Below are positions 734 to 10,756 of a DNA stretch of 13,284 bases, piece after piece. Source of the stretch: Desulfovibrio sp. (GTDB lineage Bacteria > Desulfobacterota > Desulfovibrionia > Desulfovibrionales > Desulfovibrionaceae); NCBI GenBank assembly GCA_022837365.1, contig JALHHV010000071.1, positions 3,161 through 16,444 of the forward strand. The letters are read 5' to 3'. How positions within the stretch are numbered: the stretch's first letter is position 1; each line of letters opens with the position of its first letter. The notes under the pieces were generated by a model. It was given only the letters and a program-made list of their open reading frames with translations, ran no database searches and was not told the origin of the DNA. The translations under genes were made by a program, and so were the position numbers.

Positions 734-745
734 GCGGCATGCCGC
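734..745. repeat. Perfect 12-bp palindrome GCGGCATGCCGC
   Basis: This perfect inverted repeat lies in the 139-base gap between the Cache gene and the three-gene module. It could be an operator or part of a hairpin. GC-rich palindromes of this length also arise by chance in such a genome, and no promoter could be placed confidently around it. Confidence 0.3.
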
Positions 746-850
746 TTGCTGTTATCGATTCTTGCCCCGCGTCGCGACACTTTCGTCGCATGGCGCCACA
801 CACCGCGTTGCACGCGCCGTTTTTGTCGCTTCCGACACAGGAGCCTCCGC

Positions 851-1900
851 ATGAAAAGCCTCGACGACCTCATCCAGTCAGTGAGCCGCATGGCCGATGA
901 AGACCGCCAGCCCCCGCCCCCGGCGGACCTGCTGTTCTACGCGCCCTGCCCGGTGAAGCTGGCTGTGAAGGACGCCATCGACGCGCTGGCCGCCGCGCAC
1001 GCGGCCACGGGCGACTCCCTTGCCGTGCACATTCCCATGGGCTGCACCTCGGTGGACCCGTACGACCCCCTGCACAGGGAAACCGACCCCGGCCACCTGC
1101 CGCGGGTCATCGCCTCCATCGGCTTCGGCGACTTCTTCCGGCGCGGATTCGTTGAGCGTTTCGTCAACGCGGGCGTGTTCGCCGCGCCGCAGCCCGCGGG
1201 CGTCACCCCCATGCACCGCGCGGCGGGCATCGTGGACCCGGACGGGCACTACCTGGTCTACGGGCTGACCCCGTACATCTTCCTCATCGACCGCAAGCGC
1301 CTGGGCGACCTGCCCGTGCCCCGCCGCTGGGCCGACCTGCTGGACCCGCGCTACGCCGGGCAGGTGAACATGTGCGGCGACGGCGACGACATGGCCGACG
1401 CGGTGCTGCTGTCCATCCACAAGGACTTCGGCATGCAGGGCATTGCCCGGTTTGCCGCCAACACGCACGGGCTCATGCATTCCTCGCGCATGGCCAAGTC
1501 CGGCGGCGCGCCGCAGGCCGGGGGCATCTACATCCTCCCGTACTTCTTCGCGGAAACCACCCGCCAGCCGGACCACATGCTGACCGTCTGGCCGGAGGAC
1601 GGCGCGGCGGCCAGCCCCCTGTACATGCTGGCCAAACGAAACGCCCGGCCCCGGCTGGACCGGCTGGTCGACTTTTTCGCCACGGGGTTCGGCCAGATGG
1701 AAAGCGCCCGCTGGTTCCTGCCGCTGACCGGGCCGCTGCCCCGAAGCCTGCCGCAGGGCGCCGCCATCAAGTGGATCGGCTGGGATTACATCCGCGCCAC
1801 CGACATCACCGCCCTGCGCGACCGGCTGAACGGCGAATTCCGCCTGCTGGTGAAGGCGCGCGAGGGGCAAGGCCGGGGAGACGTGGCATGCGCCTCGTGA
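851..1900 (+). CDS. Periplasmic-binding-protein-fold protein without signal peptide
   Basis: 349 residues. The ATG at 851 is preceded by AGGAG at 839-843 with 7-nt spacing. Longer upstream starts would add a non-protein-like Arg/Cys-rich stretch. The body resembles the iron(III)/aminoethylphosphonate type of ABC substrate-binding proteins. RRWADLLDPRYAGQV (158-172) is the usual lobe-crossing motif, followed by a GIYILPYFF strand (225-233) and VWPEDGAAASPLYML (246-260), where such proteins line the ligand cleft. Unlike those proteins it starts MKSLDDLIQSVSRM, with no hydrophobic signal segment and no lipobox, so it should stay in the cytoplasm. Cysteines at 33 (APCPVK), 65 (PMGCTS) and 175 (NMCGDGDD) lie in conserved-looking places and might bind a metal or ligand. 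It overlaps the next gene by 13 bases. The fold is likely; the ligand and role are unknown. Confidence 0.8.
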   Translation: MKSLDDLIQSVSRMADEDRQPPPPADLLFYAPCPVKLAVKDAIDALAAAHAATGDSLAVHIPMGCTSVDPYDPLHRETDPGHLPRVIASIGFGDFFRRGFVERFVNAGVFAAPQPAGVTPMHRAAGIVDPDGHYLVYGLTPYIFLIDRKRLGDLPVPRRWADLLDPRYAGQVNMCGDGDDMADAVLLSIHKDFGMQGIARFAANTHGLMHSSRMAKSGGAPQAGGIYILPYFFAETTRQPDHMLTVWPEDGAAASPLYMLAKRNARPRLDRLVDFFATGFGQMESARWFLPLTGPLPRSLPQGAAIKWIGWDYIRATDITALRDRLNGEFRLLVKAREGQGRGDVACAS

Positions 1901-2667
1901 CCGTGGCCGGGCCGCCCTCGTGCGGCAAGACAGCGGTGCTGTCCCGCGCCTGCGGGCTGCTGGCGGCGCGGGGGGTGCGCACGGCGGTGGTCAAGTTCGA
2001 CTGCCTGCAAACCCGCGACGCGGACGCCTACGCGGCGGCGGGCATCACCGCCGTGGCCGCGCTGTCCGGCGGGCTGTGCCCGGACCACTTCTTCGCCACC
2101 AACCTGGAAGAGGCCTGGGACTGGGCCGCCGGAACGGGCGCGGAGTGTTGCGTCATCGAAACCGCCGGGCTGTGCAACCGCTGTTCGCCCCACCTGCGCG
2201 GGGCGCTGGCCCTGTGCGTGGTGGACAACCTGATGGGCATCGACGCGCCGGAAAAGATCGGTCCCATGCTGCGTCTGGCGGACATGGCGCTGGTGACCAA
2301 GGGCGACCTGGTCTCGCAGGCGGAACGCGAGGTGTACCGCCACCGCATCCGCCAGATGAACGGACGCGCGCTGATCCGCCACATCAACGGGCTGACCGGA
2401 CAGGGCTGCCAGGAACTGGCCACGGTGCTGTCCCGCGCGCCGGACATCGCCACGGTGACGGACATGCGGCTGCGCTTCGCCATGCCCGCCGCCGTGTGTT
2501 CGTACTGCCTGAGCGAGACGCGCATCGGCGCGCGCTACCAGAAGGGCAACGTGCGCAAGGCGGAGTTCGCCCCCGTGCCCGCGCGCGATCCGGAAGGCGA
2601 GGCGGCCTACGCGGCTGGCGGACCGGGCGGCCCCCGCGAGCCTGGCGTATCCGGAGAGCGCCCATGA
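1888..2667 (+). CDS. HypB/UreG/CobW-like P-loop GTPase with cysteine motifs
   Basis: 259 residues; ATG at 1888 with GGGGAG at 1875-1880, inside the end of the preceding gene. The Walker A loop is GPPSCGKT (8-15). VKFDCLQTRDAD (35-46) and SGGLCPDHFF (60-69) occupy positions where HypB and UreG carry metal-handling residues. ETAGLCNRCSP (91-101) corresponds to the switch region of metal-insertion GTPases (compare E-N-x-G-x-L-x-C-P in HypB). LADMALVTKGDLV (130-142) gives the guanine-specificity TKGD motif, and GLTGQG (168-173) resembles the helix cap before the family's last helix. A CSYC pair (204-207) near the C terminus could complete a metal site. The last ~30 residues are low-complexity. 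By family analogy it hydrolyses GTP to load a metal or cofactor onto a client. The stop overlaps the next start (ATGA, 2664-2667), so the two are translationally coupled. Substrate unknown. Confidence 0.85.
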   Translation: MRLVTVAGPPSCGKTAVLSRACGLLAARGVRTAVVKFDCLQTRDADAYAAAGITAVAALSGGLCPDHFFATNLEEAWDWAAGTGAECCVIETAGLCNRCSPHLRGALALCVVDNLMGIDAPEKIGPMLRLADMALVTKGDLVSQAEREVYRHRIRQMNGRALIRHINGLTGQGCQELATVLSRAPDIATVTDMRLRFAMPAAVCSYCLSETRIGARYQKGNVRKAEFAPVPARDPEGEAAYAAGGPGGPREPGVSGERP

Positions 2668-3488
2668 CGTCCGCAACCCGCGCCACCGCCCCCAATCCGG
2701 CAGACGCCGCGCCAGCGGCAGACAGTGACGCCCCGGTGCTGCGCACCCTCACCGCGCTGGCCGGGCACGACAAGTCGGGCCGCTCCGAACACGCGGACGT
2801 CACCTTCCGTCCCGGCGAGGTCACGGCCCTGCTCGGCCCCACCGGTTCCGGCAAGAGCCGCTTTTTGTACGACATCGAATCGCTGGCCGACGCGGACACC
2901 CCCTCCGGCAGGCGCATCCTGCTGGACGACGCCGTCCCCGACGCCGAACGCCGCTTTGCCCTGCAAGGACGGCTGGTGGCCCAGCTGACCCAGAACATGA
3001 ACTTCGTGCTGGACATGCGCGCGCTGCCGTTCATCCGCATGCACGCCGAAAGCCGCGCCGTGCCCGACCCGGACGCCACGGCCCGCGCGGTGCTGGCGGC
3101 GGCCAACGACCTCGCTGGCGAGCCGTTTGCCGATGACGCCCACCTCACCCAGCTTTCGGGCGGGCAGTCGCGCGCGCTGATGATCGCCGACGCGGCCCTG
3201 CTCAGCTGGTCGCCGGTGCTGCTCATCGACGAGATCGAGAACGCCGGTGTGGACAAACGGCGCGCGCTGGACCTGTTGCTGCGCAGCGACAAGATCGTGG
3301 TCATCGCCACGCACGATCCGGTGCTGGCCCTGTCCGCCGACCGGCGGCTGGTGTTCGAGCACGGGGCCGTGCGTTCGGTGCTGCGCCGCACCACCGAAGA
3401 AGCACGCCTGCTGGCCCACGTTTCGGCCATGGAGGATCAGCTTTCCGACATCCGCGCCCGTCTGCGCCGGGGCGTGTCCGTGGCCTGA
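2664..3488 (+). CDS. Stand-alone ABC-type ATPase
   Basis: 274 residues; ATG at 2664 overlaps the GTPase stop, with CGGAGAG at 2652-2658 as ribosome binding site. All ABC ATPase motifs are visible: Walker A GPTGSGKS (58-65), Q-loop AQLTQNMNF (106-114, Gln110), signature LSGGQ (164-168), Walker B with catalytic Glu VLLIDE (185-190) and switch His in IATHDP (His217). The enzyme should therefore be active. The Asn-Met-Asn after the Q-loop and the IENAGVDKRR stretch after Walker B are not typical of importer ATPases. The first ~25 residues are Ala/Pro-rich and the last ~35 are a charged, probably helical tail. No permease is encoded beside it, and both upstream partners look cytoplasmic. It may drive a soluble assembly or remodelling step rather than transport. 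Alternatively a permease is encoded elsewhere. Confidence 0.87.
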   Translation: MTSATRATAPNPADAAPAADSDAPVLRTLTALAGHDKSGRSEHADVTFRPGEVTALLGPTGSGKSRFLYDIESLADADTPSGRRILLDDAVPDAERRFALQGRLVAQLTQNMNFVLDMRALPFIRMHAESRAVPDPDATARAVLAAANDLAGEPFADDAHLTQLSGGQSRALMIADAALLSWSPVLLIDEIENAGVDKRRALDLLLRSDKIVVIATHDPVLALSADRRLVFEHGAVRSVLRRTTEEARLLAHVSAMEDQLSDIRARLRRGVSVA

Positions 3489-4566: not shown

Positions 4567-5064
4567 TTACCCGTTGGTGCCGGTGGGCAGGCCCGGCAGC
4601 ACCAGCGTGCGGGGTCCGGTCAGGCGGGCCTTGACCTTGCGGTAGGTTTCCGGCAGCACGCCGAAGCGGTAGGACCACAGGGCGCAGCGGTCGCGGGCGT
4701 CGCAGGTGCGCACCTCGGCCCGCTCGCCGCCGCAGCAGGCGATGCAGTAGCGGCGGACGGCCCGCACCGGGCGTTCGTCGGGCAAGGTCTGGGCGATGAG
4801 CGGCAACGCGCCGGGCAGCGGGTTGCCGCCAGACGGCTCGCCTGATGAACCGACGGGGGCTCCGGCCACGGGGTCCGTGTCGGCATCGCCGTCCCCGGCG
4901 TGGTCGTGCCTGCCGCCGCCGGTCCCGCCGGTGAGGATGCCAGCCAGCCGCCACGCGTACAGGCCGCAGCCCGTGTCCGGGCACAGCCGCACCTCGCGCG
5001 CGACGCCGCCCTGGCAGTCCAGGCAGAAACGGCGGATGGCGCGGATGATCTTCACGTGCGACAT
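4567..5064 (-). CDS. Protein with two four-cysteine modules, function unknown
   Basis: 165 residues; ATG at 5064-5062 with GAGGA at 5072-5068 just upstream. It has two copies of the same module. Residues 5-40 (KIIRAIRRFCLDCQGG...CGLYAWRL) have Cys14, Cys17, Cys28 and Cys33. Residues 99-135 (RPVRAVRRYCIACCGG...CALWSYRFG) have Cys107, Cys110, Cys121 and Cys127. Each is an Ile/Val-Arg-rich lead, CxxC, then about ten residues, Cys, four to five residues, Cys, and an aromatic-x-Tyr/Trp-Arg ending. I recall single-copy versions in uncharacterised bacterial and phage proteins (KxxCLDCxxG...VxxCxxxxCPLYxYRxG). Four cysteines at this spacing suggest a zinc or Fe-S site. A Gly/Asp/Pro-rich linker of about 55 residues joins the modules. 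No signal peptide or membrane segment. It ends convergently with the hydrolase gene. Nucleic-acid binding is possible but unproven. Confidence 0.75.
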   Translation of the reverse strand: MSHVKIIRAIRRFCLDCQGGVAREVRLCPDTGCGLYAWRLAGILTGGTGGGRHDHAGDGDADTDPVAGAPVGSSGEPSGGNPLPGALPLIAQTLPDERPVRAVRRYCIACCGGERAEVRTCDARDRCALWSYRFGVLPETYRKVKARLTGPRTLVLPGLPTGTNG

Positions 5065-5234: not shown

Positions 5235-5305
5235 TCAGGCTCGTCGGTTCATCAGGCTCGTCAGGCTCGTCGGGCTCGTCAGGCTCACCGGGCTCACCGG
5301 GCTCC
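5235..5305. repeat. Tandem 9-bp repeat across the chemoreceptor stop codon
   Basis: About eight imperfect copies of a 9-bp unit (TCAGGCTCG and variants TCGGGCTCG, TCAGGCTCA, CCGGGCTCA, CCGGGCTCC), with one unit degenerate at 5244-5251. The array begins in the last codons of the chemoreceptor gene and extends past its stop. On the minus strand one of the other frames reads as repeated Glu-Pro-Gly then Glu-Pro-Asp and ends at a TGA after about 20 codons. Unit length is a multiple of three, so copy-number change would keep frame. Confidence 0.85.
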
Positions 5306-7090
5306 GGCCGAGCCGCTGGTCAACTGATCGATCTGCTTCTCCAGGGCCTTGGCCAGCCCGGCCAGCTTCAGCACGGCCCCGGCGGCCTGGTTCATGCCCT
5401 CGGCGGTTTCCGAGGCGATGCGGCTGATGTCCTCCACCGCGCGGTTGATCTCCTCGCTGGTGGCAGACTGCTGCTCGGCGGCGGTGGCGATGGATCGCAC
5501 CTGGTCGGAGTTCTCCTCCGAAAGGGCCACGATGCGCTGCAACGCCTGGCCGGATTCGCGGGCCATGCGGGTGGCCTCGGTCACGGCGGCGGCCGCCGTC
5601 TCCATGCCCTTGATGTTGTTGCGCGCCCCGGCCTGGATGGACTGGATGGCCTGGCCCACCTCCTTGGTGGCGTTCATGGTCTTTTCGGCCAGCTTGCGCA
5701 CCTCGTCGGCCACCACGGCAAAGCCGCGCCCGGCGTCGCCTGCGCGGGCGGCCTCGATGGCCGCGTTCAGGGCCAGCAGGTTGGTCTGGTCCGCAATGTC
5801 GCTGATCACGTCCATGATCCGGCCGATGTCCTCGGCCTGCTTGCCGAGGGTGGTCATCTCGCCTTGCAGGGCCTGGGCCTGCTCGTGCACCTGGCTGATG
5901 GCGTCCACCGCGCCGCTGACCACCCGTTCGCCCTCCTGGGCCTTGGACCTGGCCTCGTCGGCGCTCTGGGCGGAACTGCCGGAACTGCGCGCCACCTCGA
6001 GGACCGTGGCGTTCATTTCCTCCATGGCCGTGGCCGTCTCGCCCGCGCGGGCGGACTGCTGCTCGGCCCCGGCGGAAACCTGCTCCACCTGGGCGGACAG
6101 GGCTTCGGCCGCCAGCGACACCTGCTGCGCGATGATCGACGCTTCCCCGGCCACCGAGGTCATGCGTTGCAGCAGGTCATTGACCCGGGCTTCCTGCTGA
6201 CGGGCCTCGGCCAGGGCCGTTTCCGCGCGGGCGGCATGGGCGTCGGCGTCGGCGCGGCGCTGGTCGGCCTCCTGCATCTTCTGCTTCAGGTTGCCCACCA
6301 TGGTTTCCATGGCGGCCTTCACCTCGCCCAGTTCCGAGGCGTAGTCACCCTCGGCGCGGGCATCCAGCGCGCCCCCGGCCACCTGCCCGGCAAACTGGCG
6401 GATGCGCTGCAACGGGCCGATGATGCCCCGGTTCAGGACCACCCAGATCACCGCGAACAGCAGCGCCAGCACCAGCAGGGTCCATCCGGCCACGGCCATG
6501 CGCGCCTGCATGACCTGCTCGTGCGCCTTTTCCAGCGAGCTGATGACCACGAAGGCCCCGTGGGTCTCGCCCACCTTCCAGCCTTCCTTGGTGCCGCCCA
6601 CCACGTCGGGCTGCCCGGCCGGGTCGCCGTGGCAGAACAGGCAGTCCTTGGTCAGCTTGATGGGCCGGAAATAATAGATCTTGTCCGGCGTGTGGATGAC
6701 CTTTTCCGTCAGGTTGGCGCGCTCCATCTCCTGCATGGCCGAAAGTTCCAGCGGCGTCGGCGTGTTGGCCGGGTTGCGCGGCTGCACCTTGGGCGCGCGG
6801 AATTCGTAGCCCGCCTGCGCGGCGTTCTGGGCCGCCATGCGCATGGCGGTGACCACGGGCACCGCGTCCATGACCCTGTCCCTGGGCAGTTCGTCCAGCG
6901 GGCGCATCAGCCCGATGTCGAGCTTGCGGCCCATCTCGTTGCGGGTGGCCTCGGCCATGAGCACCACGGCCCGGCTTTTCTGGAGGATCGCCTCTTCAGC
7001 CCCGGTACGGATGTCGATGGCGGCCACGATGACCGGCCCGGCCAGCGCCACGATGAGGATCTTCCACTTCAGGCTGAGATTGCGAAACAT
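5294..7090 (-). CDS. Methyl-accepting chemotaxis protein with periplasmic c-type haem motif
   Basis: 598 residues; start ATG at 7090-7088, chosen over an upstream start at 7162 because GGGAGGGG (7100-7093) lies just before it and the first membrane helix follows at once. Order: membrane helix (about 9-26); periplasmic domain 27-198 with CLFCHGDP (Cys150, Cys153, His154), a CxxCH covalent haem site, in a fold resembling Tll0287-like/DUF3365 sensor domains; membrane helix 200-219; HAMP about 220-272; a helical stretch; and the signalling domain with the conserved hairpin tip (432-471, [18 protein letters not shown]) that binds CheA/CheW. It should report haem redox state or a haem-bound ligand to the flagellar motor. 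Desulfovibrio DcrA is a known precedent for a c-haem chemoreceptor. No C-terminal CheR-tethering pentapeptide (xWxxF) is present. No che or flagellar genes are nearby, as is common for receptors. Confidence 0.95.
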
Positions 7091-7189
7091 GACCCCTCCC
7101 AGGGATGACGGGACAATGCGCGCCGGGTGTTCGCGGCGCGCCTCACGCGGGCGTAGCGCCATCGGGAATCACCGTCAACAAGCCGGAAC

Positions 7190-7428: not shown

Positions 7429-7821
7429 CTACGCCCCGCGGCGCTCCCACAGCTTCATGTCGCGCATCTTCTTGCGACGTTCGCGCTGCAACGACTTGCA
7501 GACCAGGGGAGTGCCCTTCTTGTAGCCGCACTTCTCGCGGTATGTTTCGGGGGTGAAGCCGTGCGTGGCCAGATGCTTCTTGGTCAGGATCTTGAACGAC
7601 TTGCCGCACTCGCAGCAGGTGATGGACTTTTCCTTGATGGCCTTCTTGGGGTCCATGCCGGCGCCATCGCCGCTTTCGGGCAGCGCACCACCTTCGCTCA
7701 GGGTCCGGATGCCCTCCGCAAGGCGCCGGACCATGGTGGTGATCTCGTCTTCGGTCATGGTCCGGACACCGGCCTGAGCCTTCACGATGTCCAGAGCCTC
7801 TTTCAGATAACTCTCCGTCAT
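7429..7821 (-). CDS. MucR/Ros family zinc-finger transcriptional regulator
   Basis: 130 residues; ATG at 7821-7819 with AAGGA at 7832-7828. The C-terminal half is a Ros-type prokaryotic zinc finger: Cys69-x2-Cys72-x10-His83-x3-His87 (TCCECGKSFKILTKKHLATHG), followed by the typical FTPETYREKCGYKKGTPLV segment and a basic tail (RERRKKMRDMKLWERR). The N-terminal half (EALDIVKAQ...MTEDEITTMVRRL) resembles the MucR oligomerisation region. These proteins bind AT-rich DNA and act as global silencers or activators, often repressing their own gene; targets here cannot be told from sequence. Upstream of the ribosome site is an inverted repeat (7835-7849) that could serve autoregulation. It stands alone, with its own terminator, and is divergent from the cobalamin operon about 430 bases away. 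Confidence 0.93.
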   Translation of the reverse strand: MTESYLKEALDIVKAQAGVRTMTEDEITTMVRRLAEGIRTLSEGGALPESGDGAGMDPKKAIKEKSITCCECGKSFKILTKKHLATHGFTPETYREKCGYKKGTPLVCKSLQRERRKKMRDMKLWERRGA

Positions 7822-7885: not shown

Positions 7886-8247
7886 TCCTTCCTTCGCGGT
7901 CAACCACAATCGGATGCGTCCGCATGCAGCGCGGCGAACCGCATATCGAAGCCCGGCAGCGATGCACGCACGACACGGATGATGCAGAGTGCCCACTGAC
8001 GCAGTGGCAAGCGCAACCTTGCGACATGTACGGCTGCCTGCACGAATGGGCCGGGGCGAACCACGGGGGCGTTGCGCTCGCCGCGCGCCATGCGGCATGC
8101 CCGTTGCGGCGGCGCGGCCCCCATGCGGACAGGCACTGTTGTGCGCCGCGCCAATGCCTGCGTTCCGGCGGCGCGGGGTTCCCCCGCACCCTGTGGACCT
8201 TCGCCGCCAAAGCCCGTACCATGCGGCAAACCCATCGGGAGCCCCGC
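7865..8247. other. Divergent intergenic region, no gene recognised
   Basis: About 380 bases between the regulator promoter area and the cobalamin operon. The plus frame is open but its translation is rich in Cys, His and Arg and does not look like a protein, and no ribosome site precedes its starts. Contents seen: a 6-bp hairpin CCACTG-ACG-CAGTGG (7993-8007) and several GC-rich inverted repeats. I searched for a cobalamin riboswitch core (B12 box) ahead of the cob genes and did not find one. The operon promoter must lie here but I cannot place it. Confidence 0.5.
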
Positions 8248-8505
8248 ATGAAGTACATCATCTTCGAGGACTTTTCCGGCCACCCCGTGCCGTTCATCTT
8301 TCCGCACCGGGTGGACCACGCGGACATGCGCGAACAGCTGCCCTACACGCGCGTGCTGTCCGCCGGTTACGTGGACATGGTGGACGGCGCGTTCCGCTGC
8401 CACGGCGGCGCGCCGGAGTTGCAGGTTTCGGCCCGGGCCGGGGACGCGGCCATCATCGCCGCCAAGTTCGCACCTCGCATGCCCGGCGAGACCGACATCG
8501 CATGA
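8248..8505 (+). CDS. Small conserved-looking protein coupled to cbiA, unknown function
   Basis: 85 residues; ATG at 8248 with GGGAG at 8237-8241. An in-frame extension upstream exists but lacks protein character. The product begins MKYIIFEDFSGHPVPFIF and contains HRVDHADMREQLPYTRVLSAGYV, then a Cys-His-Gly-Gly (CHGGAPELQVSAR) and a helix DAAIIAAKF. It looks like a small alpha/beta protein with no signal peptide or membrane segment. Its TGA overlaps the cbiA ATG (ATGA, 8502-8505), so translation of the two is probably coupled. That suggests a link to cobalamin synthesis or simply a shared promoter. I do not recognise the family. Codon use is like the neighbours, which supports a real gene. Confidence 0.75.
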   Translation: MKYIIFEDFSGHPVPFIFPHRVDHADMREQLPYTRVLSAGYVDMVDGAFRCHGGAPELQVSARAGDAAIIAAKFAPRMPGETDIA

Positions 8506-10022
8506 CCCGCCCGGCGGCGCCCCACGCGGCGCCCGCGCGCCTGCCCGTCCTTGTGGTGGCGGGCACCCACAGCGGCTGCGGCAAGACCACGGCCACGCTG
8601 GCCCTGCTGGCCGCCCTGACCCGGCGCGGCCTGCGCGTGCAGTCCCTGAAGGCCGGGCCGGACTACATCGACCCCGGCCTGCACGCCGCCGTCACCGGCC
8701 GTCCGGGCTGGAACCTGGACGGCTGGATGTGCGGGCCGGAGGGGGTGCGCCGCTCGTTCGCCCGGGCGGTGCGGGCCGGAGAACCGGACGCCATTCCCGA
8801 TATCGCCGTCATCGAAGGGGTCATGGGCCTGTTCGACGGCGCCTCGGCAGAAGGGGGGCAGGGCTCCACGGCGGAAGCGGCCGCCCTGCTGGACGCCCCG
8901 GTGCTGCTGGTGGCCGACGTGCGCGGCATGTCGCGCTCGGTGGCGGCGCTGGTGGCGGGCTACACCCGGTTCGACCCGGCCCTGCGCTTTGCCGGGGTGG
9001 TCTGCAACCGGGTGGGCGGCCCCGGCCACCGCGACCTTTTGCGCGGGGCGCTGGCCGCGCACTGCCCGGACGTGCCCCTGCTGGGCCTGCTGCCCCGCGA
9101 CGAGGCCGTGGCCCTGCCCTCGCGCCATCTGGGCCTGGTCCAGGCGCACGAACATCACTGGGCGGACCTGACCGCCCGGCTGGCCGACTGGTTCGAGGCC
9201 GGGCTGGCCGCAGCCGGGCAAAGCCTGGACGGCCTGCTGGCCCGCTGCGCGGCCATGGCCCCCGAACCCCCACGGCCCGCCGCGCCCGCCACCCTTCCCC
9301 CCGCCACCGTCACCGCCACGCACCTGACCGAAGGCGCACCGCGCCGCGTGCGCGTCGGCATCGCCCGCGACGCGGCCTTCTCCTTCCTGTATCCGGAAAA
9401 CCTGTTCCTGGTGGAGGCGGCCGGGGCCGAGCCGGTGTTCTTCTCGCCGCTGGACGGCGCGGAACTGCCCCCCGGCCTCGGCGGGCTGCTGCTGCCCGGC
9501 GGCTACCCGGAACTGCACGCCGCGCGCCTGGCCGCCAACGGCCCCATGCTGGACGCCGTGCGCGCGTTCGCCGCGCTGGGCCGCCCGGTGCACGGCGAAT
9601 GCGGCGGGTTCATGTATCTGATGCGTTCCATCACCGATGCGGCGGGCGTCCGCCACGCCATGACCGGCTGCCTGCCCGCCCGTTGCCGCATGGACGGGCG
9701 GCTGCGCTCCCTAGGCTACCGCGAGGCGCACACCCTGGCCCCGTCCCCCTTCGGCCCGGCGGGCACGGCGCTGCGCGGCCACGAATTCCACTATTCGCAC
9801 CTGGAGCCCGGCGCGCCCGGCGACGATCCCGCCGCTCCGGCCCTTCCGGCCATTCCAGTATGGACCCTGCGCGACCGCAACGGCGCGCCGCTGGGACCGG
9901 AAGGGCTGCGCGCGGGTTCCGTGTCCGGCTCGTACGTCCACCTGCATTTCGGCTCCAACCCCGATGCGGCGCGCGCCTTCGTGGCCGCCTGCGCCGCCCC
10001 CGGAGACATCGCATGCCCCTGA
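8502..10022 (+). CDS. cbiA: Cobyrinate a,c-diamide synthase CbiA
   Basis: 506 residues, somewhat longer than the usual ~460. It catalyses glutamine- and ATP-dependent amidation of the a and c side chains of cob(II)yrinate in cobalamin synthesis, in the cytoplasm. N-terminal dethiobiotin-synthase-like ATPase domain: P-loop GTHSGCGKTT (21-30), SLKAGPDYIDPGLH (48-61), VIEGVMGLFDG (103-113) and LLVADVRGMSRS (135-146). A variable Ala/Pro-rich linker (about 250-282) accounts for the extra length. C-terminal class I glutamine amidotransferase domain: LLLPGGYPE (329-337), nucleophile Cys367 in HGECGGFMYL, and YVHLHFGSNP (478-487) with the catalytic His region. The start overlaps the stop of the small upstream gene, and its end overlaps cbiC by ten bases. 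The a,c-diamide specificity follows from the CbiA/CobB pattern; hydrogenobyrinate amidation (CobB) is less likely in an anaerobe. Confidence 0.96.
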   Translation: MTRPAAPHAAPARLPVLVVAGTHSGCGKTTATLALLAALTRRGLRVQSLKAGPDYIDPGLHAAVTGRPGWNLDGWMCGPEGVRRSFARAVRAGEPDAIPDIAVIEGVMGLFDGASAEGGQGSTAEAAALLDAPVLLVADVRGMSRSVAALVAGYTRFDPALRFAGVVCNRVGGPGHRDLLRGALAAHCPDVPLLGLLPRDEAVALPSRHLGLVQAHEHHWADLTARLADWFEAGLAAAGQSLDGLLARCAAMAPEPPRPAAPATLPPATVTATHLTEGAPRRVRVGIARDAAFSFLYPENLFLVEAAGAEPVFFSPLDGAELPPGLGGLLLPGGYPELHAARLAANGPMLDAVRAFAALGRPVHGECGGFMYLMRSITDAAGVRHAMTGCLPARCRMDGRLRSLGYREAHTLAPSPFGPAGTALRGHEFHYSHLEPGAPGDDPAAPALPAIPVWTLRDRNGAPLGPEGLRAGSVSGSYVHLHFGSNPDAARAFVAACAAPGDIACP

Positions 10023-10756
10023 CGCCAGACCCCGCCCGCCCGCCCGCCACGCACCCGGACGCCGCCCGTTCCGCCGACGCGGACCCGCGCCTGCAACCCG
10101 CCTTCACCCCGGACGCCATAGAGGCCCGCTCCTTCGCCATCATCGACGAAGAGGCCGGAGAGCCCAAGCCCTTCGCGGGCCGGGCCTGGGAAATCGCGCG
10201 GCGGCTGGTGCACACCTGCGCCGACTTCGACATCCTGCCCCACCTGCACCTGCCGGACGCGGCCATCGAGGCCGGGGTGGCCGCCCTTGTCCGGGGCTGC
10301 GCCATCTACACCGACACGGAAATGGCCCGCGCGGGCATGCCCCTGCGCCGTCTCGACCCGCTGGGCTGCACCGTGGCCTGCCTGCACGCCCTGCCCGGCA
10401 CGGCGGAACGCGCGCGGGAACGGGGCACCACCCGCGCCCGCGCGGCCATGGAACTGGCCGGGGACCGGCTGGGCGGGGCCATCGTGGCCGTGGGCAACGC
10501 CCCCACCGCCCTGCTGGCCCTGCTGGACCATCTGGGGGCGGGCGGCCCGCCCCCGGCGCTGGTGGTGGCCATGCCGGTGGGCTTCGTCAATGCGGCGGAA
10601 TCCAAGGAACTGTTTCTGGAACAGGCCGCCGCCCTGACGCAATATGGCCCGCAGGGGCTGCCCTGCCTGGCCCTGCGCGGCCGCAAGGGCGGCTCGCCCC
10701 TGGCCGCCGCCACCGTCAATGCAATGGCGGAAATGGCCCTGCGCATGAAAGATTGA
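10013..10756 (+). CDS. cbiC: Cobalt-precorrin-8 methylmutase CbiC
   Basis: 247 residues; ATG at 10013 inside the end of cbiA, with CGGAG at 10001-10005. It moves the C-11 methyl group to C-12, giving cobyrinate; in anaerobes the substrate carries cobalt. Family motifs: ARSFAIIDEE (38-47), ARRLVHTCADFD (62-73) with the likely catalytic His67, TDTEMARAG (100-108), AVGNAPTALL (159-168), MPVGFVNAAESKE (187-199) and RGRKGGSPLAAATVNA (222-237). The first ~28 residues are a Pro/Ala-rich extension beyond the usual start at IEARSF; the upstream ATG is kept because of its ribosome site. CbiC makes the direct precursor of the CbiA substrate, so the two adjacent genes encode consecutive steps. The rest of the pathway is not in this window. 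Confidence 0.96.
   Translation: MPLTPDPARPPATHPDAARSADADPRLQPAFTPDAIEARSFAIIDEEAGEPKPFAGRAWEIARRLVHTCADFDILPHLHLPDAAIEAGVAALVRGCAIYTDTEMARAGMPLRRLDPLGCTVACLHALPGTAERARERGTTRARAAMELAGDRLGGAIVAVGNAPTALLALLDHLGAGGPPPALVVAMPVGFVNAAESKELFLEQAAALTQYGPQGLPCLALRGRKGGSPLAAATVNAMAEMALRMKD

Follow-up and report, generated by a model that had tools for sequence, protein, structure and literature searches.

A conserved gene trio of Desulfovibrio encoding a cytoplasmic binding protein, a HypB/UreG-like GTPase and an ABC ATPase, and its candidate role in nitrogenase cofactor assembly

Three overlapping genes in a Desulfovibrio window

We analyzed a 13,284-nucleotide stretch of Desulfovibrio sp. DNA (contig JALHHV010000071.1 of assembly GCA_022837365.1; hereafter the window), in which three overlapping forward-strand genes encode a substrate-binding protein (SBP), a GTPase and an ATP-binding cassette (ABC) ATPase. 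The SBP gene (851..1900, a frame of 349 amino acids) is preceded by an AGGAG ribosome-binding-like site at 839..843, and its product belongs to SBP_bac_6, with a ferric-binding-protein fold and no export signal (PF13343, 208.5 bits against a cut-off of 24.6). It overlaps by 13 bases the GTPase gene (1888..2667, 259 amino acids), whose match to cobW (PF02492, 39.7 bits against 20.7) places it in the CobW/HypB/UreG superfamily. The GTPase gene in turn shares an ATGA with the ABC ATPase gene (2664..3488, 274 amino acids; ABC_tran, 48.7 bits against 25), which has no transmembrane part and a complete set of Walker A, Q-loop, LSGGQ, Walker B and H-loop motifs. A preliminary description made from the sequence had read the same gene layout and the same three folds, and Pfam supports it above its cut-offs.

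The GTPase carries the GGLCPDHFF and CSYC motifs that this description had pointed out. Within the former lies the CPDH motif (2077..2088), whose C-P aligns with that of the CPH of UreG; a CNRC motif lies at 2173..2184, and the CSYC motif (2497..2508) reads CAYC in one relative (L037; loci carry L numbers and genomes G numbers) and CPYC in another (L070). In a Foldseek comparison the best matches were 2hf8, 2wsm and 5xkt; among solved structures the protein is closest to HypB and UreG, with which it shares the GTPase fold, the G motifs and a C-P-(x)-H motif. GTPases of the HypB/UreG/CobW type insert nickel, cobalt or zinc. The window protein scores well below both NCBIfam equivalogs, however, with 38.1 bits against 121.2 for HypB (TIGR00073) and 19.9 against 204.2 for UreG (TIGR00101), and it differs from both in its additional CNRC and CSYC motifs and in having an SBP and an ABC ATPase as partners.

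The SBP departs from FbpA, SfuA and FutA in lacking an export signal and a permease, and also in the DUF1858 domain of its relatives, which is N-terminal in all three relatives' SBPs that were scanned (L003, L043 and L019) and missing from the window SBP. A further difference is a cysteine lying about where those proteins would have their first iron ligand. This residue, Cys33 of a P-C-P motif (codon 947..949), is invariant in a 49-row alignment and, judging from the aligned range, probably falls near the place of the iron ligand His9 of FbpA.

Conservation of the trio and its gene neighborhoods

When genomes were scanned with an alignment of 15 GTPases, at least 552 relatives were returned, the best 80 loci of which were kept; with L003 and the window they form a set of 82, and the GTPase was recognized in 80. 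The relatives span Desulfovibrionales, Geobacterales, Clostridia, Negativicutes, Fusobacteria, Spirochaetes, Bacteroidetes, Chlorobi, Acidobacteria and others, and include one archaeon. The order SBP-GTPase-ATPase is exact in 67/80 loci, which bears out the preliminary description in its expectation that the genes would be conserved together. The ATPase family occurs in 78 loci (directly downstream of the GTPase in 75) and the SBP family in 73 (directly upstream in 69); missing members are partly explained by contig ends (L027, L057, L062) and partly by copies without an adjoining SBP, such as L066. The trio is together in all 30 of the loci L087-L116, where L112 is the window itself and several others duplicate earlier loci, and some relatives have the alternative order GTPase-ATPase-SBP (L016, L122-L133, L135). 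The association is not due to chance, as the same three families occur together across many phyla. One member of the set, L003 (NZ_CP084075.1), is filed as a Fusobacterium plasmid, a record of 2.1 Mb in which the trio stands amid seemingly ordinary chromosomal genes.

In a maximum-likelihood tree, the 80 GTPases fall into clade A (31 rows), clade D (13 rows, mostly Desulfovibrionales and including the window copy) and the remaining 36 rows, called B, which are the rest of the tree and are not shown to be monophyletic. L037 and L070 fall outside the CSYC pattern and enter no clade count, and later-fetched and Clostridia copies were assigned to clades from their search scores instead of the tree. 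Some loci are close kin (L046, L049 and L059) or of one genus (L168, L170 and the window).

An SBP paired with an ABC ATPase invites the explanation that the trio is an ordinary importer whose permease is encoded elsewhere; a FecCD-type permease does lie in four clade B runs, and a permease of another type in L066. Against this, the GTPase gene stands between the two, and a protein with at least four predicted transmembrane segments occurs in the same-strand run of only 11/80 loci (5/31 in clade A, 1/13 in D and 5/36 in B), never between the trio genes. Counted in the same crude way, two or more such segments are predicted in none of 72 SBPs, 80 GTPases and 78 ATPases, and at least one in 5, 3 and 9 of them, respectively. 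A signal-like stretch, defined as 15 residues ahead of the PC motif that average at least 2.0 on the Kyte-Doolittle scale, was found in 0/72 SBPs by a test that is itself crude, since only 9/14 ModA and 5/14 FecB controls reach the threshold. The trio thus shares an SBP and an ATPase with ABC importers and differs in having neither a permease nor a secreted SBP, and we regard an importer as highly improbable. The preliminary description had likewise read the trio as free of membrane proteins and its SBP as cytoplasmic, and routine adjacency of homologues to a permease gene, which would have spoken against it, did not occur.

Gene neighborhoods, surveyed over about 10 kb, differ markedly among the clades. 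In the 36 clade B loci we found FecB-like genes (11), modA (10), modB (9), Mop/ModE (9), FecCD (9), nifDKEN-type genes (5), nifB (4), a nitrogenase-associated TIGR01616 type (4), TrmO (4), nifV (3), nifH (3) and CRP/FNR (2). In clade D, nifH and nifV are neighbors in L008, Mop in L013 and RpiB in L012. The 31 clade A loci have a zinc-ribbon protein (20), ferredoxin (5), Hcp, the hybrid cluster protein (4), CRP/FNR (4), Rrf2 (4) and, more rarely, YgbA (2) and modA/modB (1); the YgbA_NO family lies near two trios, with Pfam seen for one. Hcp also adjoins the trio in 5/13 newly fetched loci of clade A type (L137, L138, L154, L155, L156). In B and D the survey found no Hcp neighbor, and one weak match (24%, 8 kb off, L176) appeared later. 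When ten neighbor representatives were checked with NCBIfam, nine exceeded the cut-off of the expected model, one of them through Mop and ModE domains; the tenth, the L008 nifV, scores under its own (303.9 against 462.9 bits).

A physical link with nitrogenase genes comes from the window's own family. In L157, nifD, nifK, nifE, nifN, nifB, SBP, GTPase and ATPase follow one another on one strand, with about 520 bases between nifB and the SBP gene; by NCBIfam, nifD, nifK, nifE and nifB exceed their cut-offs and nifN is slightly below. L022 and L024 have ModE/Mop, modA, modB, nifH and nifD-type genes after the trio.

Three observations concern the neighborhoods in their own right. The zinc-ribbon protein of clade A, about 80 amino acids long (MHDGC...CP.C...PCHAFD), lies downstream of the trio (for example L025 4169-4426, L030 11751-11999, L053 11723-11965 and 17 others) and has a weak, under-cut-off match to the zinc part of HypA. 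A TrmO (TsaA) gene adjoins or lies near the trio in L122, L123, L124, L126, L016, L050 and L066. A further lineage with the order GTPase-ATPase-SBP comprises L152 (9612-14500) and L127-L135; in L152 the genes after the trio encode a NifH-like protein, which at 347 bits does not reach the nifH cut-off of 394, two proteins that by eye resemble nitrogenase-like subunits, and FecB/FecCD proteins.

Co-occurrence with nitrogenase genes and promoter elements

We next consider which genomes carry the trio. From the 80 loci, 44 carrier genomes were picked: 18 of clade A, 25 of B or D, and one (L070) unassigned. With a threshold of E <=1e-40, nifB is present in 25/25 B and D carriers and in L070, and in 2/18 clade A carriers. 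It exceeds the curated cut-off in 22 of the 25, the other three (G006, G033, G043) scoring 335.6-337.7 bits against 343.65. Broader surveys of the window's class, Clostridia, Spirochaetota and Gammaproteobacteria searched for the GTPase alone, the whole trio being seen only in fetched DNA. Of 297 genomes from the window's class, 64 have the GTPase and 160 have nifB (E <=1e-70): both in 58, the GTPase only in 6, nifB only in 102 and neither in 131. Accordingly, 58/64 GTPase carriers are nifB-positive against 102/233 others, and the fraction by GTPase similarity is 33/35, 15/15 and, for the most distant copies, 10/14. The trio of B and D is thus found mainly in nif genomes. In 245 Clostridia, three genomes have B-like copies by score, and all three are nifB-positive above the cut-off, against 15/242 others; the A-like carriers are nifB-positive in 1/10, and the genome with a distant copy (G276) is nifB-negative. 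The GTPase occurs in 5/120 Spirochaetota. Gammaproteobacteria were dropped as a contrast set, the single occurrence in 274 genomes being the sample's centre genome and uninformative.

The nif link could merely reflect shared ancestry and an anaerobic lifestyle: all co-occurrence counts are uncorrected for kinship, and the named carriers are mostly anaerobes. However, clade A carriers, many of them anaerobes too, are poor in nifB, and adjacency and promoters agree independently; we consider this account hardly probable.

The promoter search covered the 350 bases upstream of the SBP gene, with random windows of the same loci as controls. At up to two mismatches, the sigma-54 pattern TGGCACN5TTGC is found in 28/34 clade D regions (8 with none, 11 with one and 9 with two), where chance would give 0.7 at one mismatch and 5.3 at two; L013 and L159 are of the same genome, which leaves 33 distinct regions. 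In clade B it occurs in 4/27 regions at one mismatch and 6/27 at two (expected, 0.4 at up to one and 3.8 at two), and in clade A in 0/42 at up to one and 2/42 at two (expected, 0.3 and 4.5). L008 and L157, where the trio comes after nifV or nifB, are without the element. In the window, a putative -24/-12 element, CGGCATGCCGCTTGC, lies at 735..749 on the forward strand, with GG at 736-737, GC at 748-749 and two mismatches, and it fits the Desulfovibrio sigma-54 consensus tGGcacg/tTGCt as given in an excerpt of PMC4641369. Taken alone it is a weak candidate; its GG-N10-GC spacing is exact, and a similar element precedes the trio in its kin L168 and L170.

Clade A shows other elements. The HcpR2 box, taken from PMC1274295 and scored at up to one mismatch, occurs in 9/42 clade A regions (expected 0.69), 0/27 of B and 0/34 of D, and an HcpR FNR-like box in 6/42 (control 0.4), 0/27 and 1/34, respectively. 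Neighbors and promoters, two independent signals, therefore split the family in the same way. Alternatively, the trio might in every clade serve to shield metal clusters from nitric oxide or to repair them, with nitrogenase as a sensitive client under its protection. The Hcp neighbors of clade A (4/31 and 5/13), its two kinds of box and the two YgbA_NO loci would fit this account, but the near absence of both boxes from B and D, and of Hcp neighbors there save the weak match in L176, make it improbable. Hcp itself exceeds its cut-off in 36/44 carriers, and in Clostridia it is present in 14/14 GTPase carriers against 101/231 others; since many B and D carriers have it as well, the clades cannot be told apart by Hcp content alone. 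We accordingly rejected Hcp as a client common to every clade, as B and D have neither the HcpR boxes nor the Hcp neighbors, though most carriers have Hcp.

The trio might instead serve general intracellular trafficking of molybdenum or tungsten for any molybdenum enzyme. Mop, ModE, ModA, ModB or TrmO stands beside the B and some D trios, several of them with no nif gene in view; on the other side, B and D trios are nearly confined to nif genomes, and in the Gammaproteobacteria sample the GTPase occurs in the centre genome alone. We judge this quite improbable.

A proposed metal-delivery machine and its client

We propose, with a probability of roughly 0.53, that the trio is a soluble, GTP- and ATP-driven metal-delivery machine that in the window's group serves the assembly of the nitrogenase active-site cofactor. 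Gene content, gene order and sigma-54 elements support nitrogenase well as the likely client in this group. As part of the same explanation, a sister lineage of the machine, clade A, would serve the Hcp/nitric-oxide response. The soluble metal-handling machine of the preliminary description remains the best mechanism, its metal role being one that we infer; that description had named no client, and our comparison suggests nitrogenase for the window's clade and the Hcp/nitric-oxide response for another.

UreG and HypB release nickel on GTP hydrolysis. By analogy, the cleft of the cytoplasmic ferric-binding-protein-like SBP, which has the invariant cysteine, would hold a metal or a chelate of it, and the GTPase, with its CPDH and two CxxC pairs, would take the metal over and free it upon GTP hydrolysis. 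The ABC ATPase may drive SBP opening and closing, much as SufC works without a membrane. A possible acceptor is NifEN; direction, metal and acceptor, like the physical complex of the three proteins, are all conjectural here. Molybdenum is the likeliest metal, at somewhat under even odds, because Mop, ModE and molybdate transporter genes adjoin clade B and some D copies. Iron comes next, because of the ferric-binding fold and of clade A members such as Fusobacterium, a genus not known to us for molybdenum enzymes.

Several observations weigh against this proposal. The window's element has two mismatches, a level at which chance gives 5.3 of 34, and a simple dyad search found no activator site shared by nifH and module promoters. 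In the class, 102 of the 160 nifB-positive genomes are without the GTPase, which is thus not needed for every nitrogenase, and 4/14 of its most distant copies lie in genomes without a nifB match; in Clostridia, 14/18 nifB-positive genomes are without the GTPase and 15/18 without a B-like copy. A NifQ match was found in 2/26 carriers and none in the other 24, so the trio is not simply a NifQ substitute, and strict replacement of NifQ is weakened as a candidate. No nif gene was recognized among the scanned window genes. In the window's own genome, 75% complete and in 589 contigs, nifB exceeds its cut-off and a 74-residue nifDKEN-type piece lies beside it at a contig end; at this completeness a Mo-type nifD was not seen, and the one nifH above its cut-off adjoins anfD, in an Fe-only cluster.

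This last arrangement shifts weight from our proposal, and from general molybdenum trafficking, toward an alternative in which the trio serves an alternative (Fe-only) nitrogenase or a metal switch and not the Mo enzyme as such. AnfD, the Fe-only nitrogenase alpha subunit, scores 1089.9 bits against a cut-off of 873.8 there (L188 1186-2745). In Pelosinus (L043/L060), some 10 kb away from the trio, lies a nifD-like gene with 83-85% identity to that AnfD. The GTPase occurs in 9/12 genomes with more than one nifB match against 49/148 with one (six of the twelve being one genus), and the further-nifB regions of carriers hold AnfD in G747 and G839, not in G758 and G748, and none in the non-carriers G719, G708 and G721. 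The patchy presence of the trio among diazotrophs would also fit. Conversely, the clusters adjoining the trio are of the Mo type (nifD in L022 and L157, nifK in L068), and, with only nifB surroundings viewed, an AnfD-like protein lies near the best nifB in 2/20 regions (15 clade B genomes), 0/19 class carriers and 0/20 non-carriers. In G747, of the window's genus, anfD occurs together with a Mo-type nif cluster. We consider an Fe-only role unlikely.

The proposed delivery to nitrogenase can be set beside known cofactor-assembly systems. To our knowledge, metal supply to the nitrogenase cofactor in diazotrophs without NifQ is not settled. NifQ and, in Paenibacillus, HesA have been proposed to supply molybdenum to the iron-molybdenum cofactor (excerpts of PMC11605450 and PMC6361004). 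Both belong to families different from the trio proteins, HesA by description only, and none of the three window proteins matches the NifQ domain PF04891 in Pfam at E <=1. SufBCD provides a precedent for an ABC ATPase that serves cofactor assembly without a membrane part (PMC9164220); the trio ATPase shares this feature and differs in having an SBP and a GTPase as partners. A SufB/SufD-like family was not noticed among recurrent neighbors, no SufB/D model search having been made. The combination, though real, widespread and built from components of known kinds, fits no named family known to us. No paper describing it was found in the literature searched, which excluded subscription papers and supplements, and the excerpts of PMC5701242, PMC12915319 and PMC1274295 do not name it.

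More tentatively, the trio may represent an undescribed class of cofactor-assembly machine that loads metal into complex Fe-S enzymes, nitrogenase or the hybrid cluster protein by lineage. In such a machine, an importer-derived cytoplasmic binding protein would be coupled to two nucleotide-driven partners, the GTPase and the ABC ATPase. The trio could join the parts list for transferring nitrogenase to new hosts, and its clade A form is a candidate accessory system for Hcp.

The remainder of the window holds genes of other kinds. On the reverse strand, 4567-5064 encodes a 165-amino-acid protein in which a Cys-rich repeat occurs in two similar copies (CLDCQGG..CPDTGC and CIACCGG..CDARDRC) and which has no Pfam family above its cut-off, 5294-7162 a chemoreceptor with a Tll0287-like sensor domain, and 7429-7821 a ROS/MucR regulator. 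ARAGORN places a tRNA-Pro at 6759-6844, inside the chemoreceptor gene on the opposite strand, which is probably false. On the forward strand, a cobyrinate a,c-diamide synthase type protein (CbiA and GATase_3; 7989-10022) is followed by the precorrin-8X methylmutase CbiC (10019-10756).

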